Shown: one piece after another, positions 1,821 through 18,142 of the stretch
How the letters are laid out: every line of letters begins with the position of its first letter
Numbering within the stretch: the first letter of the stretch is position 1
Origin: Candidatus Kapaibacterium sp.
Lineage (GTDB): Bacteria; Bacteroidota; Ignavibacteria; Kapaibacteriales; UBA4661
Reading direction: 5' to 3'
DNA: 39,213 bases
Assembly: GCA_004292595.1 (NCBI GenBank)
Contig: RDXM01000109.1
Span: forward strand, 1-39,213
The notes under the pieces: generated by a model
What the model was told of the DNA's origin: nothing
Database searches by the model: none
What the model saw: only the letters and a program-made list of their open reading frames with translations
Program-made: the position numbers and the translations under genes

Positions 1821-2791
1821 ACGGAGCAGAATGGTTCAAACACGATGCGGATATGTCCGCCGATGAAAAGGTGATTTACCTCGAATCCCAGTTTGGACTT
1901 GTGGGCTACGCGCTTTTCAACAAAATGCTGGAAGTATTGTCTCGTGCAAGCGACAATCGCATCCAATGGAATGAGTTTCAATGTGGCGTGTACGCACGAA
2001 AGTTCGGTTGTGAACGTGCGATGTTTCAATCCTTCATCGAAGAGGCAACGCGCCCCGAAGTGGCGGCGTTTCTGCTTCAAGACGGTTGGCTTTTCAGCAA
2101 TGGCTTAATCAAACGACTCGCGCCGATGTACGAAAAGCGGGCGCGGAACGCGGAAAAGGTTCGCAAGTATCGTCAAAGCAAAAAGGGCAAAGCACAAAGT
2201 AACGAAATGCAAAGTAACGAGGTACAAACCGACGATGTAACGGTTACATACGACCTTGTACCCGTTACGCACCCAGCACACGCACCAAACGACACCACTA
2301 CAAACGAGCAGAGTAGAGAAGAGTACAGTAGAGAAGAGCAGAGTAGAAAAACCCACCCACCCACCCCCGCAAACGTAGTCGAAATGCCAGAGGCTTTGAA
2401 GGCATTGAAGGGTTTTGCTCAGGAATGGGAAAAGTGGGAAAAGGCGCGGAAGTCAAGTGTTGGCGCGGCGCGGGCGCAGTTGGAAACACTTCTGGAGCAT
2501 TTTGCAAACGGCTACGACCCGCGTAAAATCGTGAAGTTCAGTGTAGAAGCGGATTTCCGCGCTCTTGCACGTCCGACTGACGATATGAAATTTCCAGCAC
2601 GAGCTTTCAGCCAGAGCAATCAGCAACAACGCCATTATGTTGCGGTGGAAATGCCTCAAGGTGGCGTGAATCCTACCATCAGACTGGACTCACTGGACTT
2701 CAGCCGTGCAGAACACTTGCGCGACAAAGCACTTTTGACGTATGACGAATATCAACTGTTGAAGAAAACCAATGCCCCAAACACCGCATAG
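1817..2791 (+). CDS. DUF4373 (Lin1244/Lin1753-like) replication-type protein
   Basis: The N-terminal part, about residues 1-120 (EWFKHDADMSADEKVIYL, GLVGYALFNKMLEVL, and the basic stretch KRARNAEKVRKYRQSKKG), matches the DUF4373 family found in phage and plasmid replication modules. The middle (about 125-185) is low-complexity and rich in N, T, E and S. A helical C-terminal domain (about 190-290) has EWEKWEKARKSSVGAARAQL. The start overlaps the previous stop by 4 bases, and the end overlaps the following gene by 20 bases. By family and position it probably acts in initiation or helicase loading during element replication; no enzymatic motif is visible. Confidence 0.7.
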   Translation: MNGAEWFKHDADMSADEKVIYLESQFGLVGYALFNKMLEVLSRASDNRIQWNEFQCGVYARKFGCERAMFQSFIEEATRPEVAAFLLQDGWLFSNGLIKRLAPMYEKRARNAEKVRKYRQSKKGKAQSNEMQSNEVQTDDVTVTYDLVPVTHPAHAPNDTTTNEQSREEYSREEQSRKTHPPTPANVVEMPEALKALKGFAQEWEKWEKARKSSVGAARAQLETLLEHFANGYDPRKIVKFSVEADFRALARPTDDMKFPARAFSQSNQQQRHYVAVEMPQGGVNPTIRLDSLDFSRAEHLRDKALLTYDEYQLLKKTNAPNTA

Positions 2792-3068
2792 AATCAAAAC
2801 ACTCACAACACGAGTGAAAGAATTTGCCAACATCGCTACGTCCGTCGCTCTCGATGCAAACTTGACCAACGCTGAAAAAGCGATGTACCTCATTCTCGCC
2901 AGTTATGCAACGGCGGAAGGGCAGTGCCGCTTGCAACAGCGCACCATTGCTGACCATTACGGCTGTTCGCTCCGTTTTACGCGGTCGTTGCTGATGAGCT
3001 TGCGTGAAAAAGGCTGCATCCGATGGGAACGGCGTAAACACTACAATTTTTACCAAATCTTGCGCTAA
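2772..3068 (+). CDS. Winged-helix replication/regulatory protein (HTH_36-like)
   Basis: This 98-residue protein has a core (NAEKAMYLILASYATAEG, then QRTIADHYGCSLRFTRSLL, then LREKGCIRWERR) resembling the HTH_36 winged helix of phage replication and RepA-like proteins. In that family the pattern of an active-transcribed helix, recognition helix and wing is conserved. It overlaps the DUF4373 gene by 20 bases and is co-directional with it. The likely role is origin or promoter binding in the replication module. No catalytic motif is seen. Confidence 0.6.
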   Translation: MPQTPHRIKTLTTRVKEFANIATSVALDANLTNAEKAMYLILASYATAEGQCRLQQRTIADHYGCSLRFTRSLLMSLREKGCIRWERRKHYNFYQILR

Positions 3069-3251
3069 AAACTGTTCTAAAAATGACCAAAATACTACCC
3101 AACGACCAAAAAAGTACCGATTTAGCCCTTTGGAGCGGCTTGGAGCGACAAAACCGAGCCGAGAGCGGAAGCCAACGTTCCGCTCATACAAATAATCACA
3201 TTTGCAAACCCCTCAATTTCGCATTTGCAGCCTTTCTGAGCGATTGTATCC

Positions 3252-3545
3252 ATGAAACCGACACCAGACTACCCCAAAATAGCGCAAACGCTGAATATCC
3301 CTGATTTGGAGCGGCGTTTGAAGGAAAAATCCCGCGCTCGCAAGCTCGTGGATATTCGCCGTGCGCTCTCGGCAATTCTTGTCGAACAGGGGTATTCTGT
3401 GCGCGAGATTGCCCGTGAACTCTGCCGACCGCACAGCACCGTTGTTCACTTTGTGCAGACGCACGAAAGTTTGTTTACCACTGATACCGCATACCAAGAC
3501 CTTTTTCACCAACTTCATCACACTTTGAAGGAGACCACACCATGA
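3252..3545 (+). CDS. DnaA domain IV-like DNA-binding protein
   Basis: This 97-residue protein's second half (RRALSAILVEQGYSVREIAR, then LCRPHSTVVHFVQTH) closely follows DnaA domain IV, where the signature is helix, S-x-x-x-I-G/A, then R-x-H-S/T-T-V. There is no AAA+ domain, so this is a stand-alone DnaA-box-binding-like module. It lies between replication-type genes and the unknown gene at 3542, whose ATG overlaps its stop. It may bind DnaA-like boxes in the element origin, or recruit or block the host initiator. The role is inferred; the motif is seen directly. Confidence 0.7.
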   Translation: MKPTPDYPKIAQTLNIPDLERRLKEKSRARKLVDIRRALSAILVEQGYSVREIARELCRPHSTVVHFVQTHESLFTTDTAYQDLFHQLHHTLKETTP

Positions 3546-4255
3546 GAGTTCGTATTTCCGACATGGGCGGCAGCGACACGCGCCTTTGCCGCCTCGACAT
3601 TGAGGACGCAAGCACAGCGTCGTACAGCATCCGCGTTTTTGCGATTCATGCTCGCGGCGTGTTCGACCAGACATATTCGTTCACGGGTGCGAATTTTTCC
3701 ACACCGCCGTTTTCGTTACCGACCAAAGACCTGAACGGGCGCATCAACACGTCTATCAGCGTCGAAGCCTTCATTGCTCGCATTGCTGGCGGGCTGGCGG
3801 TGGAGAATAATCGTTTTGAAATGTCGTACTTCTTGCAACCAGTCGAAATTCGCGTGGAAGTTCCTGCACCGCTTCCGCCCGGAGCAATCGTGCCTGTGCG
3901 TCGCAATGCGGATTATCTCATCCGCGACTTCACGAAGCTGAACGGTATTCAGAAGTCCGCAGGGGGAACGTATCGCACGTGGGATATTGATTTCATCAGC
4001 ATTCAAGCACTTTCGATGGCGCAAGCTGCGAACAAGTGCCGTGAGCTTGTTGCGGCGGCAAGTGCCGACCCAAATTTCAGTTTGCAATACCGCCGCCGCG
4101 CCTTACCCAACGAGGAATGGACGGCGCAGCGCGACGCAACGTTTAACCAAGCAATGGGCGAAATAGCGCGGGTGATAGATTTCGCGGTGGAAGAAGTGCA
4201 GAATCAGCAGAAATTTAATCTGGTGAATCCGCAGTTACTGAGGGTGAATCCGTGA
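3542..4255 (+). CDS. Unknown protein of the mobile element
   Basis: This 237-residue protein matches no family that I recognise. The first 120 residues are rich in alternating beta-like strands (YSIRVFAIHARGVF, NRFEMSYFLQPVEIRVEV). There is a Pro-rich turn (PAPLPPGA), and the last 100 residues are helical. No signal peptide or membrane segment is visible. The ATG overlaps the previous stop and the stop overlaps the next GTG, so it is tightly coupled in the operon between replication genes and the nuclease. A virion or morphogenesis role is possible but unsupported. Confidence 0.55.
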   Translation: MRVRISDMGGSDTRLCRLDIEDASTASYSIRVFAIHARGVFDQTYSFTGANFSTPPFSLPTKDLNGRINTSISVEAFIARIAGGLAVENNRFEMSYFLQPVEIRVEVPAPLPPGAIVPVRRNADYLIRDFTKLNGIQKSAGGTYRTWDIDFISIQALSMAQAANKCRELVAAASADPNFSLQYRRRALPNEEWTAQRDATFNQAMGEIARVIDFAVEEVQNQQKFNLVNPQLLRVNP

Positions 4256-4623
4256 GTCTTTCCGAGCAGCCAACGAGTGCGAAGGTTCTGCGCGTGATTG
4301 ATGGCGATACGATTGTTTGCGAAGTGGATGGAAAGCCTTATACGGTGAGGCTTTCGGGCGTGGATTGTTTCGAGGCGCAGCGCACTCCAAAACTTCGCAA
4401 ACAAGCCGCTCGTGCGGGAATCACACTGGACGAAGCATTTGAACGCGGCACACAAGCAAAACTTTTTGCAACGCTTTTACTCACAGGTAAAAGCGTTGAA
4501 CTGCGCTTCAATCCTGCTGATGAAGACCGCGACCGTTTTGGGCGGTATGTGCGTGAGGTGTGGTTGGAGGGGAAAAATTGTGCTACAAAATTGCAGGCGG
4601 GACACTACAACGCATCACTGTGA
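4252..4623 (+). CDS. Staphylococcal nuclease-type (thermonuclease) protein
   Basis: This 123-residue SNase-fold enzyme carries the family landmarks: VLRVIDGDT (D19), VRLSGVD (R33, D38), E41, and DRFGR (D94, R98). These correspond to the Ca2+-binding and catalytic residues of staphylococcal nuclease, so it should hydrolyse DNA and/or RNA. There is no signal peptide, so it should act in the cytoplasm, or be released on lysis. It starts with GTG at 4252, overlapping the previous stop. The C-terminus is short compared with secreted nucleases, which lose no catalytic residue this way. In a mobile element it could degrade host or competitor nucleic acid or process replication intermediates. Confidence 0.85.
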   Translation: MSLSEQPTSAKVLRVIDGDTIVCEVDGKPYTVRLSGVDCFEAQRTPKLRKQAARAGITLDEAFERGTQAKLFATLLLTGKSVELRFNPADEDRDRFGRYVREVWLEGKNCATKLQAGHYNASL

Positions 4624-4680
4624 TTCTGCGCCATAACGGTCTATTTCAATCCCTTCCGTGCCGCTTCCCGCCTTGTTATT

Positions 4681-4729
4681 TTGCATCCGTTCAATTCATC
4701 ATTCACCACCACTTATTGAAAGGATGCAA
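4681..4729 (+). promoter_or_regulatory. Leader hairpin sequestering the ribosome-binding site of the 4732 gene
   Basis: TTGCATCC (4681-4688) pairs with GGATGCAA (4722-4729). TTCAAT (4690-4695) pairs with ATTGAA (4715-4720), with one mismatch between the two stems. The AAAGGA ribosome-binding sequence lies inside the right arm, and the ATG begins two bases after the stem. If folded in the mRNA, the hairpin would block initiation. The fold is read from the sequence; regulation is inferred. Confidence 0.55.
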
Positions 4730-4731
4730 TC

Positions 4732-5058
4732 ATGGATATTGCATTGTCGCAAGTAACCAAATTGGAAGGTATTGCCACGCAAGACAACGGCAATTACCGC
4801 CAGTTCAACGAATTCCAAGATTTCGTAAGCGCGGTGCGCTCTATCGGAACGCTGGAGAAAAATTGCACTGATGCTTTGGCATCGTTTGACGTGCTTCAAG
4901 CTGACACCGATGGCAAAGTTATCGTTGTCGCAAAAGGCATTGAAGGGGAAGTGCAGTTCACGCCCAATGCTGCGTTCCGCACGGCATTGGAGAACGTCAA
5001 AACCGCACTCACCGCCGCAAAAACTGCCGTTGGTGCTGTGCAACTGCCGTTGCCGTAA
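4732..5058 (+). CDS. Unknown small protein, separate transcription-unit-like gene
   Basis: This 108-residue acidic, Ala-rich protein has a helical N-terminal half (FNEFQDFVSAVRSIGTLEKN), a short beta-like middle (GKVIVVAKG, EGEVQFTP) and a helical Ala/Lys-rich C-terminus. No known family was recognised. It has no Cys-rich, membrane or signal segments. It is isolated by 108 bases upstream and followed at once by a strong terminator at 5090, unlike the overlapped genes before and after. This suggests independent, possibly high, expression. A structural or DNA-mimic role is imaginable but not supported. Confidence 0.55.
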   Translation: MDIALSQVTKLEGIATQDNGNYRQFNEFQDFVSAVRSIGTLEKNCTDALASFDVLQADTDGKVIVVAKGIEGEVQFTPNAAFRTALENVKTALTAAKTAVGAVQLPLP

Positions 5059-5089
5059 GCATTGATGCTGCGGCATGACGCATAAAGAC

Positions 5090-5141
5090 AAAGCCGAAGC
5101 CGTGAGCATAATGCTCAATCACCACAGGCTTCGGCTTTTTT
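5090..5141 (+). terminator. Rho-independent terminator with inner palindrome
   Basis: AAGCCGAAGCC (5091-5101) pairs with GGCTTCGGCTT (5127-5137), followed by a run of T (5136-5141). Within the loop is the palindrome TGAGCATAATGCTCA (5103-5117). It directly follows the gene ending at 5058. A very similar inner palindrome occurs in the terminator at 6447. Confidence 0.85.
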
Positions 5142-5164
5142 ATTCACCACAAATCACTATCACC

Positions 5165-5497
5165 ATGAACGGACAAATCATCTCTGCGCCAAGCGTGGTG
5201 CGGGTTCCCTACGGTGGTTCTCGTACAATCCAAGTCGTTACCACCTGCGACGATGGAAACGTCCCGCCCGATTCCTTTGCTTACATTTACGAAAGCTGGT
5301 TCCAAAATATCGGCGCGTACCAAAGCACGGGCAATGGCTACGCAGTTGCTAACATCACGCTCACCAACGAGAACGAGACGGGCAGCGCAATAACGCTGCA
5401 CGAGCTTGTCTATTCGTTTTGGAACGGCGACATTGCTGATGATAACCGTGAAATCACGATTATCTACGAGCCGCATCGCAAAGGGCAGCCGTTATGA
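5165..5497 (+). CDS. Unknown beta-rich protein of the mobile element
   Basis: This 110-residue protein is predicted to be mostly beta strand (APSVVRVPYGGSRTIQVVTT, YAVANITLTNENETGSAITL, ITIIYEP), suggesting an Ig-like or jelly-roll-like sandwich. No family was recognised. The ATG at 5165 is preferred because the open frame upstream runs through the terminator at 5090-5141. The last 4 bases overlap the start of the endolysin gene, so it belongs to the late operon. A virion, tail-tip or cell-surface role is possible. Confidence 0.55.
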   Translation: MNGQIISAPSVVRVPYGGSRTIQVVTTCDDGNVPPDSFAYIYESWFQNIGAYQSTGNGYAVANITLTNENETGSAITLHELVYSFWNGDIADDNREITIIYEPHRKGQPL

Positions 5498-5916
5498 GCC
5501 GCCAAGCCTTCGATATTGCCGTTCACGAGCTTGGCACGTCGGAAATATTCGGCGATGCCGACAATGCCCGCATCATTGAATATCATCAAGCCACGAGCCT
5601 GAAAGCGAGTAGTGATGAGGTTGCGTGGTGCGCGAGCTTCATAAACTGGTGCTTGAAAAAAGCTGGTTTTACTGGCACAAACTCCGCCCGTGCGGGAAGT
5701 TTTCTCGCGTGGGGCAAAGAGATTTCGCTTCATGAAGCACGGCGCGGCGATATTGTTGTGCTATCGCGTGGCACAAATCCATCTTTCGGACACGTTGGCT
5801 TTTTTGCCGGACGCGAGCAAGATTCCGTCTTGCTTTTAGGCGGCAATCAAGGCAACAAGGTTTCAATTTCACCCTATCCCACACACCGCATCATTTCTAT
5901 CAGGAGAGCAATATGA
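5494..5916 (+). CDS. Endolysin-like Cys/His amidase or peptidase (CHAP/NlpC-P60 type, TIGR02594-like)
   Basis: This 140-residue protein has a Cys-containing motif VAWCASFINWCLKKAGF (Cys46) and a downstream GHVGFFAG (His100). GDIVVL precedes the His strand. This is the order of the CHAP/NlpC-P60 papain-like fold and resembles the TIGR02594 family found in phages. Such enzymes cut peptidoglycan stem peptides or amide bonds. It has no signal peptide, consistent with export through a holin. It overlaps the previous stop by 4 bases, and the next gene, holin-like, overlaps its end. Substrate specificity cannot be told from the sequence. Confidence 0.8.
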   Translation: MSRQAFDIAVHELGTSEIFGDADNARIIEYHQATSLKASSDEVAWCASFINWCLKKAGFTGTNSARAGSFLAWGKEISLHEARRGDIVVLSRGTNPSFGHVGFFAGREQDSVLLLGGNQGNKVSISPYPTHRIISIRRAI

Positions 5917-6263
5917 GTTCTGTAAACGTATCAAATCTCAAAATTCCATCGGTCTTTCAATGGATCATGGGCGCACCAACACTTATCGGCAAAATCCAGC
6001 GCGTGATTGCGTCGGCGCAAGCAAAAAACTGGACAACGACCGCCATCGCGCTGGTCGCGCTTTTGGCGTATGTGGGCAATCTTTTCGGCTTGCCGATAGA
6101 CGATAACACCGTACAAATGCTGGAAGCGGCGGCAATCGCTGTGATTGGCTTCTTTACTGGCAAGCAGGTCGTGAATCCGCAAAAAGTGGATGCAGAATGG
6201 CAAGCCCTCGAAACGAGCGTACTCGAAGCGAGCATGGAGGCAAAAACCAATGGAAAAACTTGA
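5913..6263 (+). CDS. Holin-like membrane protein
   Basis: This 116-residue protein has two hydrophobic segments (ALVALLAYVGNLFGL at about 47-61, and the stretch AAAIAVIGFFTGKQV at about 72-86) separated by a short polar turn. The tail is charged and helical. Size, topology and position right after the endolysin suit a holin that permeabilises the inner membrane. The start overlaps the endolysin stop. The segment GFFTGKQVV is of a type seen in phage holins, but no named holin family is certain. Confidence 0.65.
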   Translation: MSSVNVSNLKIPSVFQWIMGAPTLIGKIQRVIASAQAKNWTTTAIALVALLAYVGNLFGLPIDDNTVQMLEAAAIAVIGFFTGKQVVNPQKVDAEWQALETSVLEASMEAKTNGKT

Positions 6264-6496: not shown

Positions 6497-8284
6497 TCAA
6501 AATATCTGCTTAAAGAGAGTTCCACTCTCATCTGCATCATGGAGAGTAAGCACTATCTCTGCCTCACTGACTCCCTCAAAATCATCAACTTCGCTGCGTG
6601 GCAGGTCATCTTCTATTGCCGTGATAATGTATTGCAAATTGTATTGTTGGCAGTATTTCCGTATCAAGTTGATAAAGTTGATTTTTTTGCGATTGTCAAC
6701 CCCCTCAAAAATGCCGTCATGGTATGCAAAACGATAAAAAGAAGAAGATGAATAGGCTACTAAAATAGATATGTCAAATGCAGCGCAAAGAAATTTCTTG
6801 TAGCTATTACCACGACCTGCTGCCGTGATTTCCGTTTCTTTGTCGTCTTGAATATCTGCATGAAAGGTAACATTATCTTTTGTATTCGGTTCAATGTACA
6901 ATAGTGCATGAGCGTTCAAAATTTCTTTAATAATGCTCCCGAACGATTTGCGAATGGCTTGGTACGTTGCAGATTGCGTATCTATCTCTTTGAGAATTTT
7001 ACTTCCCAAGTCCTTGATTTCATGCTCAACTTCAAGCATTTTATCTTGCATTACCGATAGCGTATCAACATTTTGTAGTTTTTCCTGCAAGCGCACAATT
7101 TCATTAGAAACTTCCGTCAATTCCCGTTGATACCGTTTATATTTTTGGAAAGAATCCTTGTCTTGGAGAGCAGATAAATAATCACTCCTCTTCTGGTCTA
7201 ACTCTTCAAGTTCCTTTTCAATACTTTGCAGTTGCTCCTGTAATTGCTTCTTCCGTTCGCGGAGATGTTTGTTGCGTTCATTGGTGATGCTGATGTTAAA
7301 TTCCTCAAGCTCCTCATAGCTTTTAACTAAATTTTCGGGCAGAAAAATTTGTACTTCATCAAAGATCTTTTTCATCTTCTTTACATCAAAACTTCGATGC
7401 TGCCGGATGCTGGTCGTAACTTTGTCAAGTTCATACGAGAGATTATAGCGATTGGTATTTAATGAAGAAATACGCGCTTCGAGATTCTCAATGAGGTTTC
7501 GATTCAGTTCTTTTTCTTCTTCATAAAACTTAAAGTTGCTAACAAATCTATCCAAGGCTTCATACTGCTGCTCCTTGAGTTCAATAGCACCCCGTATTTT
7601 ATCAACGTCATTGGCATTCACCGAGAAATTACGTTCAATACCTTCAATTGTTTTTTGTTGCTCTTCTTGAATTACTGCTAATTCATACTTTTTTTTCAGC
7701 AAATCACTATGAAATCCCAACAATTCAAATATAAAAGGCTTCCAGTCTTTATCCTTGCCTCGCTTAAACTTTTCAAGCTGAAAGACATCCTGATAATCAC
7801 TCTGCCCACGCAAAAAGTAGGTGAGTGATTTACGGTAATCTATGTTCGGCAAAATGGTAAATTCAAGCTGTTGATTGAGAAAGTTTTTTGCCTCTTTCAA
7901 TGATATTTCTTCATGATCCCACCCTGAGCCTTCAGCAGAAAAATCTTGATATTGTTCTTGGTGTTTGCGAAAAGCGATTTTCGTATTTGTAGCTTTGTCA
8001 GCACTACGGCGAATCGTTAAGAACCAGCCTGAATTTAGCTCAATCTCCAAGTAAAAAATATAATCCCTCAACTTGTCTTGTTGGAGAGCGAAAATATGAT
8101 TATCCTTTGTAAGTTGCTTCAAAAGCATATAATCAATGACTGATAGTAGCGTGGATTTACCCAAGTTATGCGAATCCTTGCCCATGTCGCCTTTATTGGT
8201 AACACGAGCAGCAACAACGTTCAGACCGTCGCGGAACTGCACACGGTCAAACGGAAGATTTGCATATATTTGGCTCAGTTTCAT
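6497..8284 (-). CDS. ABC-3C system coiled-coil ATPase (DUF2326)
   Basis: This 595-residue protein is SMC/Rad50-like. A P-loop lies near residues 37-45 (DSHNLGKST, the atypical Walker A usual for DUF2326 proteins). A long coiled coil spans about residues 200-440 (EEQQKTIEGIERN, LQEQLQSIEKELEELDQK). The C-terminal DUF2326 ATPase half has GRGNSYKKFLCAAFDIS and the Walker-B-like segment FAYHDGIFEGVD. DUF2326 ATPases are the sensor/motor of predicted ABC-three-component conflict systems. It is the last gene of a three-gene overlapping operon (ATG overlap with 8281). The region is visibly more AT-rich than the adjacent element and host genes, a sign of separate acquisition. Confidence 0.8.
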   Translation of the reverse strand: MKLSQIYANLPFDRVQFRDGLNVVAARVTNKGDMGKDSHNLGKSTLLSVIDYMLLKQLTKDNHIFALQQDKLRDYIFYLEIELNSGWFLTIRRSADKATNTKIAFRKHQEQYQDFSAEGSGWDHEEISLKEAKNFLNQQLEFTILPNIDYRKSLTYFLRGQSDYQDVFQLEKFKRGKDKDWKPFIFELLGFHSDLLKKKYELAVIQEEQQKTIEGIERNFSVNANDVDKIRGAIELKEQQYEALDRFVSNFKFYEEEKELNRNLIENLEARISSLNTNRYNLSYELDKVTTSIRQHRSFDVKKMKKIFDEVQIFLPENLVKSYEELEEFNISITNERNKHLRERKKQLQEQLQSIEKELEELDQKRSDYLSALQDKDSFQKYKRYQRELTEVSNEIVRLQEKLQNVDTLSVMQDKMLEVEHEIKDLGSKILKEIDTQSATYQAIRKSFGSIIKEILNAHALLYIEPNTKDNVTFHADIQDDKETEITAAGRGNSYKKFLCAAFDISILVAYSSSSFYRFAYHDGIFEGVDNRKKINFINLIRKYCQQYNLQYIITAIEDDLPRSEVDDFEGVSEAEIVLTLHDADESGTLFKQIF

Positions 8285-8517
8285 CGGAGTAGTTCTATCG
8301 AATCAATATCACGGTGATAGGTAATTTGACCTACTAAAAACAAAAAATTGAGAGCAGGAATAATCATTTCTTGAACTTTTTTGTCATGCCGTTGAACAAG
8401 GTGAGACACAAGGTCGGAATACTCTATACTCTGTGTGGCTTGCAGCAAAAGAATCACATCCTTCGCAATATTCAAAACACAAAGTTCTACATTCAAGAAT
8501 TTATGGGGTTGTAACAT
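8281..8517 (-). CDS. ABC-3C middle component (short winged-helix-like protein)
   Basis: This 78-residue protein is placed exactly between the DUF2326 ATPase and the nuclease gene, overlapping both (4 and 17 bases). It reads as a compact helical domain ending in a beta-hairpin wing (FLFLVGQITYHRDIDSIEL). Short middle components of this shape are a defining part of ABC-3C systems and are thought to link ATPase and effector. Assignment rests on context and fold impression, not on a strong motif. Confidence 0.7.
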   Translation of the reverse strand: MLQPHKFLNVELCVLNIAKDVILLLQATQSIEYSDLVSHLVQRHDKKVQEMIIPALNFLFLVGQITYHRDIDSIELLR

Positions 8518-9529
8518 TATCTTTAACTCCTATATCGCAATGGTAGTACATGAAATGCAAGAGTGTGCGAATTGTTCTTTTCACACCAGACAAACCGCGT
8601 TGATTCGTAAGGTCGCTCTTAACACTTGAAAATACAGCCTCGACTACGTGTTCTATAACCTCTTCAAAAGGACCAAAATCGCTACGTCCCAACGTAATAG
8701 CTGCCCTCAAATCAGCAGTAGAATCTTCATAAAAACCTCGTAATGGCTCATTTTTCGGGTCTCCTAAAAACTCTTCAATTTGCTTGAAGTAAGCAAGGGA
8801 AGTGCTTTGTATGTAGTCAAAATATTCCTTGCCCAGACTATTCAAAGCATTTTTACGTTCCTTGTCAATATTGGTCAGAGATGGCAGAATATGTTGTACT
8901 TCTTTACCAAGTGTTTTTCTATATTCGTGAAAGGTGGTAATAACCTCTTTAATATCATCAGGGAAGAATCTCAATGCTGGAGTACGCTGGTCAAGACGAA
9001 ATCTCCGCACCAAATCTGGCAGTTTATCCAAATACCCGTTTAATTGCTCAATGCCAATAATATCAACATTGGAGATACTCAATTCCTTTTTCAGTTTATT
9101 TACCAATATATCACGTTGAGGAGTAGTAAGTTTGCGGTTTGTGAAGATAATATAATTCTCGAAAGGAGCGTCTGGTTGCAATTGTGCAAGTGTTTCTATT
9201 TCTGAATCAATTTCTTTGGTAAAATCTTTATCTGAGCAAGAAGCAATTGGTTTGGTGGTGTGTTTTGCTTGGATAATAAAAACACCGCTCCAAGGATTTG
9301 AGGTGGAAGGGAATTTTTCTGCTGTTCCCTCAAAACGGCTGTCTCTACCGCCATCCTTCCCGTCAGAAAACGTTTTTGCCGCAATGCCCAATAAATCGTG
9401 GCATAGTTCAATGACCAAACGCTCAAACTCTTGCCAATCTAAATTTTCGTATGGGTATTGCGCTCGCATGAATTTTCGGAAAGATGTATGTGAAATTTTT
9501 ACGAATGGAGCAAGCACAAAGTTACTCAT
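8501..9529 (-). CDS. ABC-3C effector: Mrr-like PD-(D/E)xK nuclease
   Basis: The 342-residue protein has a restriction-endonuclease-like domain over about residues 30-150. DWQEFERLVIEL (E36) is followed by DGKDGGRDSRFEG (D57, D59, D63) and VFIIQAKHT (Q88, K90), the pattern of Mrr-type PD-(D/E)xK enzymes. The C-terminal 190 residues are helical and probably serve as the ABC-3C interaction domain. The ATG at 9529 is preferred over a GTG two codons upstream. It is the first gene of the operon. A terminator just upstream (9568-9597) separates it from the gene at 9606, so it should have its own promoter. The predicted role is nucleic-acid cleavage triggered through the ATPase. Confidence 0.75.
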   Translation of the reverse strand: MSNFVLAPFVKISHTSFRKFMRAQYPYENLDWQEFERLVIELCHDLLGIAAKTFSDGKDGGRDSRFEGTAEKFPSTSNPWSGVFIIQAKHTTKPIASCSDKDFTKEIDSEIETLAQLQPDAPFENYIIFTNRKLTTPQRDILVNKLKKELSISNVDIIGIEQLNGYLDKLPDLVRRFRLDQRTPALRFFPDDIKEVITTFHEYRKTLGKEVQHILPSLTNIDKERKNALNSLGKEYFDYIQSTSLAYFKQIEEFLGDPKNEPLRGFYEDSTADLRAAITLGRSDFGPFEEVIEHVVEAVFSSVKSDLTNQRGLSGVKRTIRTLLHFMYYHCDIGVKDNVTTP

Positions 9530-9567
9530 ATTCACATACCATAATCAAGAACAGAATAATAAAAGCT

Positions 9568-9831: not shown

Positions 9832-10086
9832 TCACTTCAACACCGCTTTCTTCCGCCCCAAACTATCCAGAAAAAAGAGGGAAGCATTGCCCGCCGCATC
9901 CACGCTCATTTCCGCCCGCACACGACCGACCGAATCCCGCAGCACAAATTTTCGTGCTTCGACGGTGCGATGGAATGTTGGGCGTAGGGCGGTTATGATG
10001 AGCGACACAGCAATCACCGCCGTTATGGAGCAGAGAAGCCACATCAGGCGAATCAATATTTGTAAACGTTGTCGGATTTGTACCAT
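9832..10086 (-). CDS. Small membrane protein, paralog of the protein at 584-859
   Basis: The 84-residue protein has one transmembrane segment (LMWLLCSITAVIAVSLIITA) and a tail with VEARKFVLRDSVGRVRAEM and SLFFLDSLGRKKAVLK. The tail shares the EARxFVxRDxxGxxRA and LFFxDxxGxxK pattern with the protein at 584-859. The ATG at 10086 avoids overlap with the ferrochelatase gene, which ends at 10100. An ATG at 10125 would overlap it. The function is unknown. The conserved module is a pair of short beta hairpins with Arg/Lys and Asp, possibly for binding a partner or polymer. Confidence 0.6.
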   Translation of the reverse strand: MVQIRQRLQILIRLMWLLCSITAVIAVSLIITALRPTFHRTVEARKFVLRDSVGRVRAEMSVDAAGNASLFFLDSLGRKKAVLK

Positions 10087-10099
10087 TACGATGCTGAAG

Positions 10100-11692
10100 T
10101 TATTGTACAAACCTCTTGACTTCAAGCCTGCTTATTTCCCCCAACGCGCTGACAAACTCAGGGTCATCATTTAAGCATGGCACAAGCGCAAATTCCACGC
10201 CACCATGCTCCACAAATATCTCTTTTCCTTCGATGGCAATTTCCTCCAGCGTTTCCAAACAATCTGCTACAAACGCTGGACACATAACCACACAACGCTT
10301 CACACCTTGTTCGGCGAGTTCTTTGAGGACATAATCCGTGTACGGACGCATCCATTTGTCGCCTGCTAAACGGGATTGATACGAGATGCTATATTTTTCC
10401 TGCGGGATATTGAGTTCTTCGGCGAAAAGCCGCGTTGTTACTTGCGTTTGATGGCGATAGCAGACGCTGTGCGCTTTGTCGGCAATTTCTCCGCTCGCGG
10501 TGCAGCAATCCTTCACTTTCAAGCAATGTTCGCCCGTGCAGTCTGTTTTGGTCAAATGCCGAAGCGGAATACCGTGATAACTCATCAAAACGTGGTCATA
10601 GCCTTGCTCCAAGTACGGTTGTGCGCTTTGGGCAAGTGCGGAAATGTACGCAGGATGCTTGTAAAATGGCGGCACAACCGAAAGCGTGATGCCATATTTC
10701 GCAGCAACCCGCTCTGCTTCTTCACTTACGGTCGTGATGGTGGACATGGCGTAATGCGGGTACATCGGCACAAGCACCACATCGCGCACACCGTTGGCGT
10801 GGAAGGCGCGTAATTCCTGCTCAATCGAAGGATTGCCATAGCGCATCGCAAGCCGCACCGATGAGGCTTTTACGCCAAGTTCATTGCCCAAATTTTCTGC
10901 GATATGTTGCCTAAAAAGCTCGTGAAATCTTTTGCTGATAACAATAAGCGGTGAGCCGTCCTGCCACCAAATAGTACGATATTTTGCTGCCGATGCTCGC
11001 GGGCGAAACGGCAAAATGAAGCATTCCACAATGATTTTCCGCACAAGATACGGCGCGTCAATCACGTATTTGTCCGTGAGAAATTGCCGTAAATACCGCC
11101 GCACATCGCGCACGGACGTTGAATCTGGCGAACCTAAATTTACCAGCAACATACCGCGTTCAGTCGAAGGTAAAGCCTCTTCATTCCTTACCTTAGAAAC
11201 ATTTTGCTCGGAAGAGTTATCAGGAATATTTTCCAATGTCCGCAAACTCAGAATAATTGCCGACACGCCAAATGCCACGCACACCAGCATAATTTCTACC
11301 CAAAGCGTTTGTACGCGCCAGATGGAGAGCGCAATCGTACACCAAAGAAGAATAAGCGAGGAAATTTTCGCACGGCGCGGCATGGCACGTTTATCCTTGA
11401 TATTCCGAAGATATTCACCCAAGTATTTGTTCGTCATTAGCCAGACATAGAGCCGCTCCGAGCTGCGAACATAACACGCAGAGGCTAACAGCAAAAAGGG
11501 CGTGGTGGGCAAAATTGGTAGAAAAATACCCAGCACACCAAGCGCGACGAAAATGCTTCCTAAAAGAATAAAAAGCCAGCGAATCGGGGATGTAAGCGGC
11601 TTCAAAGCCTGTTGTTGGATTGGCGAAGAAATAGTATTCGTGGTCATAATGAAGCGAAAAAAGTTGGGGTGGTAGTTATCTAAATCATTCAA
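10100..11692 (-). CDS. hemH: Fused DUF454 (YbaN-like) membrane domain and ferrochelatase
   Basis: This 530-residue protein has two parts. Residues about 36-152 form a YbaN/DUF454 membrane domain (GVLGIFLPILPTTPFLLLA, then CYVRSSERLYVWL). Residues about 178-530 form a full ferrochelatase: RGMLLVNLGSPDS, YPHYAMSTI, MSYHGIPLRH with catalytic His373, and MCPAFVADCLETLEEI with the conserved Glu pair. Ferrochelatase inserts Fe2+ into protoporphyrin IX to form heme. Cysteines at 385, 390, 396, 397 and 411 resemble the Cys-rich insert of bacterial ferrochelatases, some of which hold a 2Fe-2S cluster; a cluster is possible but unproven. A second ATG 15 codons downstream (11647) is also a possible start. 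DUF454 proteins occur beside heme genes elsewhere, so the fusion suggests membrane-coupled heme or iron handling. Confidence 0.9.
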   Translation of the reverse strand: MNDLDNYHPNFFRFIMTTNTISSPIQQQALKPLTSPIRWLFILLGSIFVALGVLGIFLPILPTTPFLLLASACYVRSSERLYVWLMTNKYLGEYLRNIKDKRAMPRRAKISSLILLWCTIALSIWRVQTLWVEIMLVCVAFGVSAIILSLRTLENIPDNSSEQNVSKVRNEEALPSTERGMLLVNLGSPDSTSVRDVRRYLRQFLTDKYVIDAPYLVRKIIVECFILPFRPRASAAKYRTIWWQDGSPLIVISKRFHELFRQHIAENLGNELGVKASSVRLAMRYGNPSIEQELRAFHANGVRDVVLVPMYPHYAMSTITTVSEEAERVAAKYGITLSVVPPFYKHPAYISALAQSAQPYLEQGYDHVLMSYHGIPLRHLTKTDCTGEHCLKVKDCCTASGEIADKAHSVCYRHQTQVTTRLFAEELNIPQEKYSISYQSRLAGDKWMRPYTDYVLKELAEQGVKRCVVMCPAFVADCLETLEEIAIEGKEIFVEHGGVEFALVPCLNDDPEFVSALGEISRLEVKRFVQ

Positions 11693-11729: not shown

Positions 11730-14564
11730 TTAGAACGGCAATGCCCACGCTATGGAAAATCCGAAGGGCTTATCATTCACGTTTTCAAGCGGTGTTACGC
11801 GCCAGAGCATATCAAAACGAAGATACATCACAGAAGAAATAAACGTCGGAATCCGCGAAATACCGATACCAAGCTCTGCAACCATGCCGTTTGCACCATG
11901 CAACACGTTGGCGGATTCATTCGCGCTGGTCTGTCGCACGTGCAACGCCTGAGCAAGCAAAAGCAATTCCACACCGCGCCCGTCGTAGAGCGGCAACCCC
12001 AATGCCCGCCAGACCACATCAGAAAAACTATGCTCCACGTGCAGCGAAGCGTATTCCGTGCCGCCCGTGCTGCTGCCCGAAAGCGTGAGAAAATCTGTGA
12101 AACGTCCCATAAATCGGACGCGCTGCATCATCACAAACTGGCGTTGGAGCGGTGTTTCGGCGCTCGCTCGCCCAGCCGAAAACGCACAGTTCAGGTACAT
12201 GGGCAAGTAGCCCGTTTGGAATGTTGGCTGAAGCCATTTTGCACTGACTTCACCTCTGAAAAATGGTTTGTCAGGCGTTTGAAGATTGTACCCCGCAAGC
12301 CCGCGTATTTTCAAGCCGAAGCGTCCTGATTGCGAGGAGCGCAACAGCGGCAACGAAGCAAATAAATCACTCTCGGTGTAGTTCCACGCGGCTTCAGCAC
12401 TCGCTTGGCGAAATATACCCGATTCAATCGGCATATTTGGTCGAACGCTTCCTGCAAGCGCAGTCAAAGACTGATGAGCAAACTCCGCAACATTGACGGA
12501 AAACGCGGCTTGTCCTTGCGGGGTTTCATGACGCAAACCCGCTCCAATACTCACGCCTTCTTCACGATAAAAATCGAAACGGTCTTCAAACAATAAATCT
12601 CGCACGACAAACGCATTCAAAAAACGCAGATACGACGGTCGGTCTTGAAGCGTCTGCAAGCGAGAATAGACGCTGCCATTGGCGAATACGGTTGTTGTGC
12701 CATTGTCGAAAAAATTCCATCGAAGTTCCGTCTCACCAAAAAGCTGCGGCGAAGCAAGCCCCACTGCGCCTCGCAAGCCAACGCTCAAACTACGCCACTG
12801 CGCCAAAACGTCTGCACCCAGCATCAATCCTGTTGTGCGTGAGCGGTCAATCACGGGCGTGAGACCAAGGTGCAGTGTGTCGGTGGTGAGCGAAAGGGGA
12901 AGCGTGATCATTCCTGCCGAAGTCCACGAAGCGCGGAAAAACGAGCGTTCTGGCGGTGGCGTGTGCAAGGCTTTTGCTTCGGATGTATTCGTTGCTTGTG
13001 CAAGGCTTGAGAATGTTTCGGCTGTTTCGTGCAGAGCGTGAAGTTTAGCGTGAAGTTTAGCGGAAAGTTGAGTGCGGAGAGCGTGATGTGATGGGGTTTC
13101 CAGCAAAGAATCAGACAAAGAATCAGACAAAGAACCAGAAGTATCGTTTACCCGAAATGTTGCGACATTGTAGGGCGTTGCGGAGCTTGGCATTGGCAGA
13201 AAATCGCCGCCCGTCGTCGCAGAAGCAAGCAGTGTTTTCGCTAATTGCTGATGTTGTGATTGTCCAAACGCCAGTATTTCTGCGCTTTTTGGATGATGAA
13301 TACTCATCAACACCGATTCGGCGCGGTACGAAACACGGCATTCGCTTATCCATCGCGCAAGGTCGAACGCAAATTCTGCCGTAAAATCGCTGTACGCAGG
13401 AACTGTTGCCGTGTGCGGAGAATTGCTCTCGTTGCTGTTTGAATTGACATGAGAATTGATAGGAGAGAAACTCGAATCATGCGCTAGACGAACCGTTTCA
13501 AATTGCTGATACAAATGTACGGCGGGGAGAGTGGCAATGCAGGTTTGGGGCGGAAGAGCGGCATCAATTTCACGAAGAAAAAAATCGTTGTGCGCTGTGC
13601 GCTCAAGTGTGATTGTTCCAGCCAGCGTTGGCGCAATGGTGCTGCGGCGCGGCGCAAAGGCAAGCACGTAGAGCGTCCGATTCTGGTCTTCACGCCGTTC
13701 TTGAAGCATGAAGTCGTAGAGTTCGAGCGCGTTCAGAGCGCAGGGCGTGGTGAGCGTCGTATTGCCAAGTTTGATAGAAGCATCCGCCGCATTGACCCAC
13801 GCGCCCAGACCAGCAAAATTCAGTTCAATCGGCGCATGACCCGTGCTACGCTGCTGCACAACAACACGCTGCGACGGTGCTTGCGGCTGTCGCTGTTCTT
13901 CGGCAATCGTTTCTTGTTGAAGTGTGTCGGTAGTGCATTGTACGAGAAAGGGCAGAATGGAGCGCGTTGCAGACGTGGCATACAATTTTTCAAAAACTGT
14001 TGCCACAAACGGCGTGAATCCTTGCCTTTGTGCGTGTTGGCGGGTGAAGCGTTGGATAATCTGCTCGGCAGACAACTCGGCGGCAACGCTGACCGCTTGG
14101 TAGCGCAGGACAGATTCCGAAAGTGGTATTTCGCCCAAAGACACCCTCGCGCTATCATTTGCGCTCTCATCCATATTGGCAATGAGTGAGCGCATTGCAT
14201 CTGGCGTGTAGGCAAGGCTGTCGTATCCTAATCGGCGAACCGTGAGGACGGGCAGGCTTTGCAGCAGAGAGGCAGCCGAGCGAGTAAACACACAACGAAA
14301 CTCACCCGTTACTGATGAATAGACCGTTATCGGTTTTTTTGTCGGCAAAACACCCCAAAGCTGCACTTTTGCTCCGCGCAATGGCAAGCGAGTGTTTGCG
14401 GCGATTACTTTTCCCGTGAAGGTACGCGAGGAAGAATTGTTATGAGCAATGTCTTTTACAATATCTTGAGCAAAGCAGAATGGCACGGCATTCAAAAAAA
14501 AGCTCAGGAAACAGCACAGAGCTTTATAAAAGCTCTGTTGCCGTAGAAACATTATTTTGAGCAT
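11730..14564 (-). CDS. DUF5686 family outer-membrane protein with carboxypeptidase-like domain
   Basis: This 944-residue protein starts with a signal peptide (FYKALCCFLSFFLNAVPFCFAQ). A carboxypeptidase-like regulatory domain follows (about 47-130: FTGKVIAANTRLPLRGAKV), then the DUF5686 core beginning AEQIIQRFTRQHAQRQGF, and a C-terminal beta-barrel that ends in WALPF. The terminal Phe is typical of outer-membrane barrels. DUF5686 proteins are common in Bacteroidota and their function is not established. Two in-frame 12-bp tandem duplications at 13036-13059 and 13105-13138 lie in a Ser/Leu/Lys-rich linker. It follows a candidate promoter at 14587-14645 and is next to ferrochelatase, so it may be an independent unit of the iron locus. 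Confidence 0.7.
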   Translation of the reverse strand: MLKIMFLRQQSFYKALCCFLSFFLNAVPFCFAQDIVKDIAHNNSSSRTFTGKVIAANTRLPLRGAKVQLWGVLPTKKPITVYSSVTGEFRCVFTRSAASLLQSLPVLTVRRLGYDSLAYTPDAMRSLIANMDESANDSARVSLGEIPLSESVLRYQAVSVAAELSAEQIIQRFTRQHAQRQGFTPFVATVFEKLYATSATRSILPFLVQCTTDTLQQETIAEEQRQPQAPSQRVVVQQRSTGHAPIELNFAGLGAWVNAADASIKLGNTTLTTPCALNALELYDFMLQERREDQNRTLYVLAFAPRRSTIAPTLAGTITLERTAHNDFFLREIDAALPPQTCIATLPAVHLYQQFETVRLAHDSSFSPINSHVNSNSNESNSPHTATVPAYSDFTAEFAFDLARWISECRVSYRAESVLMSIHHPKSAEILAFGQSQHQQLAKTLLASATTGGDFLPMPSSATPYNVATFRVNDTSGSLSDSLSDSLLETPSHHALRTQLSAKLHAKLHALHETAETFSSLAQATNTSEAKALHTPPPERSFFRASWTSAGMITLPLSLTTDTLHLGLTPVIDRSRTTGLMLGADVLAQWRSLSVGLRGAVGLASPQLFGETELRWNFFDNGTTTVFANGSVYSRLQTLQDRPSYLRFLNAFVVRDLLFEDRFDFYREEGVSIGAGLRHETPQGQAAFSVNVAEFAHQSLTALAGSVRPNMPIESGIFRQASAEAAWNYTESDLFASLPLLRSSQSGRFGLKIRGLAGYNLQTPDKPFFRGEVSAKWLQPTFQTGYLPMYLNCAFSAGRASAETPLQRQFVMMQRVRFMGRFTDFLTLSGSSTGGTEYASLHVEHSFSDVVWRALGLPLYDGRGVELLLLAQALHVRQTSANESANVLHGANGMVAELGIGISRIPTFISSVMYLRFDMLWRVTPLENVNDKPFGFSIAWALPF
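13036..13059 (-). repeat. In-frame 12-bp tandem duplication in the DUF5686 gene
   Basis: GCGTGAAGTTTA occurs twice, back to back (13036-13047 and 13048-13059). It encodes the repeated residues KLHA in the linker of the outer-membrane protein. The unit is a multiple of three, so length changes preserve the frame. Confidence 0.8.
13105..13138 (-). repeat. In-frame 12-bp tandem repeat (2.8 copies) in the DUF5686 gene
   Basis: AAAGAATCAGAC is repeated at 13105-13116 and 13117-13128, with a third, slightly changed partial unit up to 13138. It encodes SDSL repeats in a low-complexity linker. Confidence 0.8.
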
Positions 14565-14689: not shown

Positions 14690-16834
14690 CTACAATTCCA
14701 ACATCACCCCAACAAACCACACCCTTCCAGCCAAGACGGGAATAAATTGCGGTTGCGTGAAATCACCAAGATTTTCGACACCTGCCGTAAGCGTAATGCG
14801 CTCAAACACGCGCTGCGAAGCCGTAATGTTCCACACCATGTAGGCAGGAACGTACTCGCTGTCATCATCCAAAATACGATTCCCATTCGCGTCGCCCCAG
14901 CCGTATCGGTCGCGCCAAATCCCACGCACATTGGCGGAAAAGCCGATTTCGCGCTGCTCGTAGAAGAGTTTCACATTGCCCGAATGTCGGGAGCGATTGA
15001 ACAAACCGCCATATTCCACCGTTTGGACAGCCCTATCGAAGCCGCTCGCGCCGCGTTTGAAGATTTTGTTTGCGTTGATGTTTGCTATCACGTCGTTGTC
15101 GCCCGATTCGAGATACTGATAGCCCGCGCTGAAGGTGAGTCGCTGTGCGGCATCGTCAAAAATTTGCACCGTAATATCGCTCTCCAAACCTTGCGTAAAA
15201 ACACTGGCAAGGTTGAAATACGTGAACACATTTTGCCCGTTCGATTTTGCCGCAATCGGTGAGGCTTCAATCAGGTTCGTCAAATTATTCCGAAACGCTG
15301 AAAGGCTCACCGTTACTTGCTCCAACGGGCGTACCGTTGCGCCGAAATTAAACGCCCACGAACTTTCGGGTTTAATCAAGCCCAGCGACGAAGGCTCCTG
15401 AAAGACGCGCACAATCTCGCCTCGTGCTTGCAACCGCTCCATTGCTTGCTTCACGCCTACCGCACCAAAAACACTGTATCCGGCAACGGGATTGGTGAAA
15501 TCAAGATACAACTGCTGGAACGTCGGAGCCTTGAAGCCGCTTCCCACCGAAGCGCGAAGCGTGAGAAAATCAAACGGACGGAAATTCACCGCAAGTTTTG
15601 GGCTGAGTTGCGAGCCAAAAGCGGAGTTGGCATCGTACCGCGCCGATGCGTTCACGGTCAGGTTTTCAAGCGGCAGCCACTCATCTTGCACAAACGCATA
15701 GAACACATTTTGCGAACGCGCCACGCCCGCCTGTTCCGATGCAATGCGGTCTGCAAGCACCGTTTCGTACATTCCGCCCACGCCCAGCGTGAGAAGATTA
15801 TTGGGCGCAAGCGTCGCATCGGCTTGGATTTCCGCTTTGCTCAGGCTTTGGTCGAAAGAAGATTTATCGTAAGGCGCACCGTTGTCGGCGTAGGTGAAAT
15901 CGCTCGTGGTGCGGTAGCGCGTGGTGTAAAGCCGCGCAGTGATCTTGGTTTGCACGGTGCCGATGGTGAGGCGATTGTCGTATTGCGCTGCCACATTCCA
16001 ATCGGTGAGCGTCGAGCGGTCATTGACAAAACGTTTATTCGTGCCTGTTCCGACGATAAATTTTCCATCTTGTGTCTGCGTATTGATGCGCCCTGTGAGG
16101 CGAAGCGAGGACGTTTCTGAAATATCCCAAAAGAGCTTCGGTGCAAGCGTGTAGTCCACATACGGCGGAATTGTCGGCAGTCCGCTTGCGGGGTTCAGGG
16201 CGTAACCGTCCGTGCTGTTGCGGTTCGCAAAGAGCGAAAGCCCGACATTACCGATTTTTCCTTCCACATCGGCATTCACATCCAGGGCATTAAAGCGGGA
16301 GTACCGTGCGCGAAACGTCGCGCCAAATGGTCGTTGCGGAGTTTTTGAAATAAGATTCACCACACCCCCAAGTGCCTCCGAACCGTACAGCGACGAAGCC
16401 TGACCTTTGACAACTTCGACTCTCGCAAGATTTCCAATCGCAAACCGCGAAAGCTCCATCGTTCCCGCCACCCGCCCGATAAGCGGCTCGCCATCCACGA
16501 GAATCAGTGTATAAGCGGGGTCTAGCCCTTGCACCTGAATACCTTGCCCATGGTCAAGCACAATTCCCAAGCCCGTCTGCTCGGCAAGAACATCCGAAAG
16601 CCGCACCGATGCTTGCGCCCGCATCTGCTCTGCGCTGATGAGCATGGTCGGAATGGGCGAGGATTCAGCATCACGCTCGGTGCGGGTGGCGGTGATGACC
16701 ACGTTTTTCGTGCGGGTGATTTTGGTGCTAGCTGTTGTTGTTGTTTGTGTTGTTGGTTGAGTTATTGTTTGAGCAGTAATACTATTGGCGTTCAGGTGTA
16801 ATGCCGCGCAGAGAAAGAGACAGAGTGTTTTCAT
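14690..16834 (-). CDS. TonB-dependent outer-membrane receptor (BtuB/HmuR-like group)
   Basis: The 714-residue protein begins with a signal peptide (MKTLCLFLCAALHLNANS). The plug domain (VVITATRTERDAES is the TonB-box-like start, then MRAQASVRLSDVLAEQTGLG, RVEVVKGQASSLYGSEALGG) is followed by a 22-strand-type barrel ending in VGVMLEL. The start at 16834 is chosen because the frame upstream lacks a signal peptide and would overlap the PepSY gene by 103 bases. It carries FKAPTFQQLYLDFTN, the region corresponding to the FRAP/YRAP-containing loop of heme receptors, but ligand cannot be assigned. It is in one run with the PepSY protein and the siderophore-type receptor upstream, so it should import iron chelates, heme or cobalamin across the outer membrane using TonB. 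Confidence 0.85.
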   Translation of the reverse strand: MKTLCLFLCAALHLNANSITAQTITQPTTQTTTTASTKITRTKNVVITATRTERDAESSPIPTMLISAEQMRAQASVRLSDVLAEQTGLGIVLDHGQGIQVQGLDPAYTLILVDGEPLIGRVAGTMELSRFAIGNLARVEVVKGQASSLYGSEALGGVVNLISKTPQRPFGATFRARYSRFNALDVNADVEGKIGNVGLSLFANRNSTDGYALNPASGLPTIPPYVDYTLAPKLFWDISETSSLRLTGRINTQTQDGKFIVGTGTNKRFVNDRSTLTDWNVAAQYDNRLTIGTVQTKITARLYTTRYRTTSDFTYADNGAPYDKSSFDQSLSKAEIQADATLAPNNLLTLGVGGMYETVLADRIASEQAGVARSQNVFYAFVQDEWLPLENLTVNASARYDANSAFGSQLSPKLAVNFRPFDFLTLRASVGSGFKAPTFQQLYLDFTNPVAGYSVFGAVGVKQAMERLQARGEIVRVFQEPSSLGLIKPESSWAFNFGATVRPLEQVTVSLSAFRNNLTNLIEASPIAAKSNGQNVFTYFNLASVFTQGLESDITVQIFDDAAQRLTFSAGYQYLESGDNDVIANINANKIFKRGASGFDRAVQTVEYGGLFNRSRHSGNVKLFYEQREIGFSANVRGIWRDRYGWGDANGNRILDDDSEYVPAYMVWNITASQRVFERITLTAGVENLGDFTQPQFIPVLAGRVWFVGVMLEL

Positions 16835-16941
16835 ATTGGGGGTGAAATTTGAAATCAAAAAATTGTGTTCGTAAACATTGCGGAAAATGGTCGCGGAGAG
16901 CTGTGATACGAAGCTCGATACCGACTTCGGGAGGAATACAT

Positions 16942-18132
16942 TCATCGCAGCGCAGTTCGTTTTTTCCACCACAGTAAAAAGCCAGTAACGGGCAAACTTG
17001 CCGTAAACAGTGCCGCCAGAAGCCACAAGGTTTTTCCAGCCCAACCAAACATTTTTCCCGTGTGGAGGTCGTAGTTGCTAACGCGCACGTTGTCGGGTGT
17101 GGTGTAGTTCTCGTGCAAGTCAGATTTCATAAGCCTTGCAGAGTATTGGTCGAAATAAAAAACACTTTGTTTTCGCAGAAAACGGTACGGATAGCGCACC
17201 ACAAGCCGCAAGGCATCGGTCTTTTTTTTCGGGAGTTGTAGGCTCACAAAATATGGCTCGCCGAAGCGCGTTATTTCTTGCATTGCGCGGTCGGGCACAC
17301 TCAAAACAGCCACAGAATCTTGGTTTTCTTTGGGTTTGAACGATTTGGGCTTTTCGAGATAGGTTTGCTTTTTCCCAAAGAACGCATAAATACCTTCTTC
17401 TACGGCATCGAACATCCAAAAAATTGCCGTCCACGCAACAATCAGCATCACGCCAAACGCATAAAAACCTGCCACGCGGTGCAAATCGTAATTGCGCTTT
17501 ATTCCTGCATTGGAGGCACTTGCGTTCCATCGTACCCGAAAAGAATTTCTCATGGCGTTTTTCAGAAGCCTCATGTTCATCGGCATCCAGAGGATAATGC
17601 CAGAAATGAGCATGACAAAAAATATGAGCGTATTCCATTTAATAATTTCTTCGCCCACGTCGTACCATGCGTCGCCGAAACGCCCCAAAAGCAAGCTGGT
17701 GTGCAGTTCCAACGCAATAGAAAGCGCGTCGGTCGTCATATTGCGAACGCCAAGTATTTGTCCCGTTTGTGGGTGAACCGAATAGATATTGTCGCTTTCG
17801 GTCATCACCAAAAACGTTGGGATTTCCGCGTTTGTGGAATCTGGCTGAACGGGCGATGCCGCATAGCGAAAGCGAATTTGCTCAATCACTTCGTGTGAGG
17901 CATCGCGCTGCATTGTGGCACAAACCACCGAAGGTTTCACCAATGCTGCGGTATGTGTTGCGGTATGTGTTGCGGTGCTGGGATTTCGTGCCACAAACAA
18001 ATGCTTGTGTTGGAGCCAGTTGCGGAGGTCTTCCTCGAAGGCTTGCACCGCGCCCGTTGTGGCAACAATGAAAACGAGAAGCCCGCTTGCAAGACCTATC
18101 CAGAGATGAAGGGTGTAAATAATTTTTCTCAC
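16942..18132 (-). CDS. PepSY-associated transmembrane protein (PiuB-like)
   Basis: The 396-residue protein has four transmembrane helices. It begins with the usual LHLWIGLASGLLVFIVATTG motif, then LIFFVMLISGIILWMP, the helix containing DLHRVAGFYAFGVMLI, and DLHTGKMFGWAGKTLWLL at the end. PepSY-TM proteins of this sort sit in the inner membrane and are commonly encoded beside siderophore receptors, where some act in iron release or reduction. The start chosen is GTG at 18132. It has the sequence AGGAAAG five bases upstream and lies 10 bases past the stop of the upstream receptor. A longer ATG frame would run far into that receptor gene. A 12-bp duplication at 17948-17971 encodes ATHT repeats in the periplasmic loop. 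Confidence 0.85.
   Translation of the reverse strand: MRKIIYTLHLWIGLASGLLVFIVATTGAVQAFEEDLRNWLQHKHLFVARNPSTATHTATHTAALVKPSVVCATMQRDASHEVIEQIRFRYAASPVQPDSTNAEIPTFLVMTESDNIYSVHPQTGQILGVRNMTTDALSIALELHTSLLLGRFGDAWYDVGEEIIKWNTLIFFVMLISGIILWMPMNMRLLKNAMRNSFRVRWNASASNAGIKRNYDLHRVAGFYAFGVMLIVAWTAIFWMFDAVEEGIYAFFGKKQTYLEKPKSFKPKENQDSVAVLSVPDRAMQEITRFGEPYFVSLQLPKKKTDALRLVVRYPYRFLRKQSVFYFDQYSARLMKSDLHENYTTPDNVRVSNYDLHTGKMFGWAGKTLWLLAALFTASLPVTGFLLWWKKRTALR
17948..17971 (-). repeat. In-frame 12-bp tandem duplication in the PepSY gene
   Basis: GCGGTATGTGTT is present twice (17948-17959, 17960-17971), followed by a partial third unit GCGGTG. It encodes repeated Ala-Thr-His-Thr in the periplasmic loop. 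Confidence 0.85.
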
Positions 18133-18142
18133 AACCGCTTTC

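Follow-up and report, generated by a model that had tools for sequence, protein, structure and literature searches.

What does it mean that a predicted membrane domain of the DUF454 (YbaN-like) family is encoded in one chain with a ferrochelatase? No function is known for DUF454/YbaN, although the E. coli protein is a conserved part of the Fur regulon. The fusion offers a concrete hypothesis, in which DUF454 has a role in moving heme or porphyrin at the inner membrane, and it points to a possible way for a heme auxotroph to convert scavenged porphyrin to heme at the entry point. The window analysed here, 39,213 nucleotides, is the entire contig C74 of a draft genome of 4.6 Mb (96.5% complete, 199 contigs).

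The fusion gene and its two domains

The fusion gene (Table 1) has an alternative start, an ATG at codon 16 (position 11647). The sequence-only reading had described a DUF454 domain joined in frame to a complete, Cys-containing ferrochelatase, and this is borne out: one open frame carries both Pfam domains and the four cysteines. The same frame is favoured by the codon-usage score across DUF454, the linker and the ferrochelatase. Scanned in frame, residues 153–178 are free of stops and of ATG or GTG starts. The earliest ATG of the ferrochelatase (HemH) half is residue 181, within its first strand, and the sole in-frame alternative start before it is the TTG at residue 153. The fusion is genuine in sequence, read in one coding frame through both domains, and is known from one draft contig. 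Two known families are combined here in a new way, in one draft genome.

Two adjacent genes could have been merged by a missed stop or an indel in the draft genome, but such an assembly or sequencing artefact is very improbable. The fusion is read from a single contig of a 199-contig assembly, and a frame shift at the linker would expose TGATAA right after the DUF454 domain. This is countered by the common coding frame on either side of the join, by the lack of any ATG or GTG ahead of residue 181 from which a separate HemH could start, and by the composition of the contig, which agrees with the genome. Its tetranucleotide correlation is 0.72–0.88 with contigs of its own genome and 0.18–0.58 with the loci of relatives. 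Because the contig shares the tetranucleotide signature of the genome, a binning error is unlikely, and binning contamination was rejected as an explanation.

The DUF454 half matches PF04304 with 133 bits (cut-off 35) over profile positions 1–115 of 115. All 13 positions that are invariant in a 12-sequence alignment of the family are kept. In this respect the domain is the same as that of the DUF454/YbaN inner-membrane family, whose members are usually stand-alone proteins of roughly 125–150 aa, whereas here the domain is joined to an enzyme. The closest DUF454 proteins are those of two members of the same order (G016 and G024), at about 50% identity. The model places helices at residues 36–57, 64–99 and 106–154, with moderate confidence (pLDDT about 55–77). 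Hydrophobic segments lie at about 37–60, 109–125 and 127–148, and the loop at about 85–110 between them is basic. By the positive-inside rule, this arrangement suggests that both termini, and hence the chelatase, are cytoplasmic.

The linker is polar in composition, and its residues 157–174 are disordered in the AlphaFold model (pLDDT below 50). The earlier proposal that a polar linker would allow both domains to fold agrees with this and with the core residues, which are intact in both halves.

The ferrochelatase half matches PF00762 with 320 bits (cut-off 27) over profile positions 2–312 of 317, and the NCBIfam hemH equivalog TIGR00109 with 237.7 bits against a cut-off of 124.6. The SxHG motif (S371-H373-G374), the glutamates E480 and E484 of ETxxE, and Cys411 are invariant in an alignment of 28 ferrochelatases, and Cys390, Cys396 and Cys397 are conserved at 90% or more. 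The fusion holds all of them, including the four clustered cysteines. E480 aligns with E343 of human ferrochelatase. The active-site His373 was assigned by motif, because the alignment with PDB sequences slips there. The pLDDT of this half is mostly above 90 in the AlphaFold model, and its fold agrees with the human and Bacillus ferrochelatases in structure comparison. By profile and by active-site positions the fused half belongs to the HemH family, and it is predicted to insert Fe2+. Four internal cysteines characterize the class of ferrochelatases that hold a Cys-ligated [2Fe-2S] cluster internally, and the cluster here is putative.

Cys-containing HemH proteins of Bacteroidota, Verrucomicrobiota and some Pseudomonadota share the full domain, the active-site positions and the four clustered cysteines. 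The fusion differs from them in its additional N-terminal membrane domain, and in its setting, a heme-uptake locus in a genome that lacks heme synthesis.

Table 1. Positions of the fusion gene, its parts and the genes of the heme-uptake locus in the window
Feature	Position	Strand	Remark
HmuY-like hemophore	36026–36646	-	
HemS/ChuX heme-handling protein	34784–35980	-	
HmuT-like substrate-binding protein	33681–34787	-	
HmuU-like permease	32494–33684	-	
TonB-dependent receptor	30008–32383	-	siderophore/hemin-receptor-like
ABC transporter ATPase	28389–29372	-	
Large ABC-2-type permease-like protein	24085–27780	-	no family match
HmuV heme ABC transporter ATPase	23225–24061	-	NF010068, 291 bits vs cut-off 261
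PD40/TolB-like beta-propeller	22068–23336	-	
M28 peptidase with PDZ domain	20723–22042	-	
TonB-dependent receptor	18143–20698	-	carboxypeptidase-regulatory-like N-terminus
PepSY_TM membrane protein	16942–18297	-	weak cytochrome-b561-like stretch
TonB-dependent receptor	14690–17044	-	
DUF5686-like protein gene	11730–14564	-	DUF5686 match below Pfam cut-off
DUF454-ferrochelatase fusion gene	10100–11692	-	530 codons, TTG start, open reading frame
DUF454 (YbaN-like) membrane domain	11237–11581	-	residues 38–152, Pfam
Polar linker	11159–11236	-	residues 153–178, mostly disordered in model
Ferrochelatase domain	10133–11158	-	residues 179–520, Pfam

Distribution and origin of the two halves

The fusion gene is the only DUF454 and the only ferrochelatase of its genome. 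Two tests had been proposed from the sequence, conservation of the fusion in related genomes and adjacency of DUF454 and hemH elsewhere, and a lack of the fusion in every other genome was to count against it. Neither pattern is seen in the genomes searched. Among 123 genomes of the order, a class sample of 391 and a phylum sample of 395, only the host genome matches, and none of 132 plasmid records contains both halves. Within the collections searched, no other genome has the fusion. Nine further members of the genus or family contain neither DUF454 nor HemH. Stand-alone DUF454 is present in dozens of order members and stand-alone HemH in a handful, and the five order members with both genes carry them on separate contigs. 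In relatives of the order or class, DUF454 and hemH do not lie side by side; the nearest pair among the matches listed for class and phylum is 31 kb apart. DUF454 is likewise not seen within the flanks of the 80 named HemH loci that are nearest in sequence.

Several candidates for a similar arrangement were rejected. In E. coli, DUF454 lies about 7 kb from hemH with six genes between them, which is a chromosomal neighbourhood only. Long-frame candidates for DUF454 fusions (G342, G471, G508, G596, G584 and others) consist of N-runs or plain open stretches with no recognised second domain. In one long HemH frame (G214), the upstream stretch is antisense to another gene, and where other HemH loci (L031, L074, L079 and others) have N-terminal extensions, these contain no DUF454.

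The HemH half is 47–56% identical to named relatives, with 50–56% to Kistimonas, Chitinophagaceae and others. Within its own order, the identity is 45–47% to HemH of two f2 members and only about 35–38% to that of f3 members. In the HemH tree the fusion groups with Pseudomonadota (90% SH-aLRT) on a long branch, a placement that is not strongly supported, and a firm donor was not assigned for this reason. These sequence relationships indicate that HemH was likely gained horizontally. The placement of the host in Bacteroidota is deduced from this tree, in which named HemH relatives intermix with members of its phylum, and from the HmuY, TonB and DUF5686-like genes.

It can be speculated that the fusion is a neutral accident, in which a horizontally acquired hemH was joined to a DUF454 gene that had lost its stop, and that DUF454 is a passive anchor whose own function is unrelated. 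The restriction to one genome, the grouping of HemH outside its own class (weakly placed as it is), the distance between the two genes in relatives and the often unrelated neighbours of DUF454 are all compatible with such an origin. We consider it unlikely, however: conserved residues are kept in both domains, HemH has no independent ATG start nearby, and DUF454 has independent links to iron or heme elsewhere, as described below.

The heme-uptake locus and its host

All recognised genes from 36646 down to 10100 are on the minus strand, and the fusion is the last gene of this locus. HmuY, HemS, HmuTUV and a TonB receptor in one orientation characterize it as a heme-uptake operon. The DUF5686-like gene is directly upstream of the fusion in the same orientation, with a gap of 37 bp. 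This operon-like context suggests that the fusion is co-transcribed with the heme-uptake genes, possibly in one of two transcripts, since a gap of 635 bp separates 29372 and 30008. The core HmuY-HemS-HmuT-HmuU-HmuV is also found in G016 and G024, both of which are without the fusion. The locus appears to be accessory, because the host is the only genome with HemS within its genus.

Some other features of the window can be described here. The ABC-2 permease-like protein of 1231 aa has a long soluble C-terminal part with no Pfam or NCBIfam match. It was considered as a CobN-like HmuS, and was rejected for want of a family match in either collection. A 97-codon ORF (9832–10125, minus strand) overlaps the end of the fusion gene by 26 bp; it encodes one hydrophobic segment and has no family match. 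The region 6497–9535 (minus strand), where GC falls to 40%, has two genes that resemble an anti-phage pair. One product is an Mrr-like endonuclease carrying ABC-3C C-terminal domain 12; the other, a DUF2326 protein, matches PADLOC PDC-M68B and, weakly, Lamassu LmuB. Small ORFs at 492–6263 (plus strand) show phage-like matches (excisionase-like, replication initiation, endonuclease, tail-lysozyme-like domain), and this region, at the end of the contig, is probably a satellite or what remains of a prophage.

The genome of the host, 96.5% complete, yielded neither ALAD (HemB) nor URO-D (HemE), and HemC and HemA were not found in it with the E. coli query. As a control, HemB and HemC were recovered with the E. 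coli query from three genus-mates and from one member of the family, and another genome (G020) gave the full heme-synthesis set. The HemL-like and HemN-like matches of the host are weak and partial (30–38% identity), and we take them to be other aminotransferases and HemW-like proteins. Two heme-copper oxidase (COX1) genes are nevertheless present in the host, as in all its family. From the two oxidases and the missing HemA, HemB, HemC and HemE, the host is almost certainly a heme auxotroph living on scavenged heme or porphyrin. The direct link between DUF454 and heme synthesis that had been read from the fusion therefore needs to be restated. The part concerning heme stands, on the context and the literature, and the part concerning synthesis does not. 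Because the host lacks heme synthesis and has the oxidases, the link is rather to heme or porphyrin uptake and salvage.

The genus-mates share the oxidases with the host and likewise have no URO-D, but HemH, DUF454 and HemS are missing from them. HemH is thus dispensable for life by scavenging, which counts against the salvage explanation given below. Three genus-mates (G002, G001 and G006) keep HemB and HemC and have no URO-D or HemH. Their tetrapyrrole synthesis possibly serves only B12 or siroheme, with heme still scavenged.

The best explanation of the fusion, to which we give an even chance, is that a ferrochelatase tethered to the inner membrane and encoded by the last gene of a heme-uptake locus salvages imported protoporphyrin into heme. 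HmuY and the TonB receptors would capture heme or porphyrin, and HmuTUV would carry it inward. The helical DUF454 domain would hold the ferrochelatase at the cytoplasmic face of the inner membrane, where it would put Fe2+ into metal-free protoporphyrin. Scavenged protoporphyrin could in this way supply the two heme-copper oxidases with usable heme. DUF454 may do more than anchor the enzyme; for example, it might hand over porphyrin, heme or iron. The direction of the reaction is inferred here, as is the membrane topology.

Terminal chelatases in bacteria that do not synthesize protoporphyrin have been reported. In Haemophilus, hemH allows iron insertion into PPIX although PPIX is not made (PMC12119688). 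The heme auxotroph Porphyromonas gingivalis grows on PPIX and iron, which was credited to a functional HemH (PMC13227078). The HemH of the host resembles those of H. influenzae and P. gingivalis in being kept without protoporphyrin synthesis (PMC12119688, PMC13227078). It differs in that no membrane-domain fusion is described for them, and in that the fusion ends an uptake locus. The salvage of protoporphyrin presumes a hypothetical environmental source of free protoporphyrin for the chelatase, and this counts against it.

The main rival to salvage is the reverse reaction, because dechelation supplies heme iron in Bacteroides. The fused chelatase might work mainly in reverse, taking iron non-oxidatively from imported heme at the membrane and releasing Fe2+ and protoporphyrin. 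Its position in a heme-uptake locus, apart from biosynthesis genes, would suit this function. Dechelation is the known heme-iron route in heme-auxotrophic Bacteroidota such as Bacteroides (PMC6460266), and the reverse reaction has been proposed for HemH of P. gingivalis (PMC13227078). However, the dechelatase implicated in those bacteria is the CobN-like HmuS/BtuS and not HemH (PMC6460266). Besides, heme breakdown may already be the task of HemS, which is encoded in this locus too, protoporphyrin would pile up without a clear use, and intact heme is needed for the oxidases of the host. The reverse direction is thus possible, at a clearly lower probability than salvage. The Hmu uptake systems with CobN-like HmuS in Bacteroides and Porphyromonas, of the same phylum, share HmuY, a TonB receptor, inner-membrane transport and the inclusion of a chelatase with the present locus. 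The host differs from them in its HemS-HmuTUV-type transporter and its HemH-type chelatase, and no CobN-like HmuS was found within the window.

DUF454 with iron and heme in other bacteria

The unique fusion, taken alone, is weak evidence on the function of DUF454, and other contexts of the family can be compared. In E. coli, ybaN belongs to the Fur regulon and its function is unknown (PMC7157518, PMC10164565). A DUF454 gene of Avibacterium is induced under iron restriction (PMC7970244). Around cluster-1 T11SS genes, both DUF454 and haem oxygenase rank with the commonest significant neighbours (PMC12282271). Together with the plasmid loci described below, these observations moderately support a role of at least one DUF454 branch in the use of heme iron at the inner membrane. 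In many genomes, DUF454 sits among unrelated genes, and among the loci inspected in the order and class, none shows DUF454 beside heme genes.

A broader proposal is that DUF454 (YbaN) proteins generally act as partners of heme-iron handling in the inner membrane, where they would deliver porphyrin, heme or Fe2+ to a cytoplasmic enzyme or receive it from one. The enzyme would be heme oxygenase in Acinetobacter-type loci and ferrochelatase here, and the fusion would capture the partnership in one chain. This generalization is doubtful at present. If it is true, it gives a function to a Fur-regulated protein of E. coli.

Directly before a receptor gene and a heme oxygenase gene, DUF454 is encoded on a small Acinetobacter plasmid (L238, 1472–5292) and on a Psychrobacter plasmid (L254, 5001–8839). 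The receptor is of the TonB-dependent hemoglobin/transferrin/lactoferrin type. No description of a YbaN-heme oxygenase module was found in the literature searched. Fourteen near-identical DUF454 copies are found on plasmids. The arrangement of DUF454, a hemoglobin-type TonB receptor and heme oxygenase in Acinetobacter and Psychrobacter forms a compact mobile heme-iron cassette.
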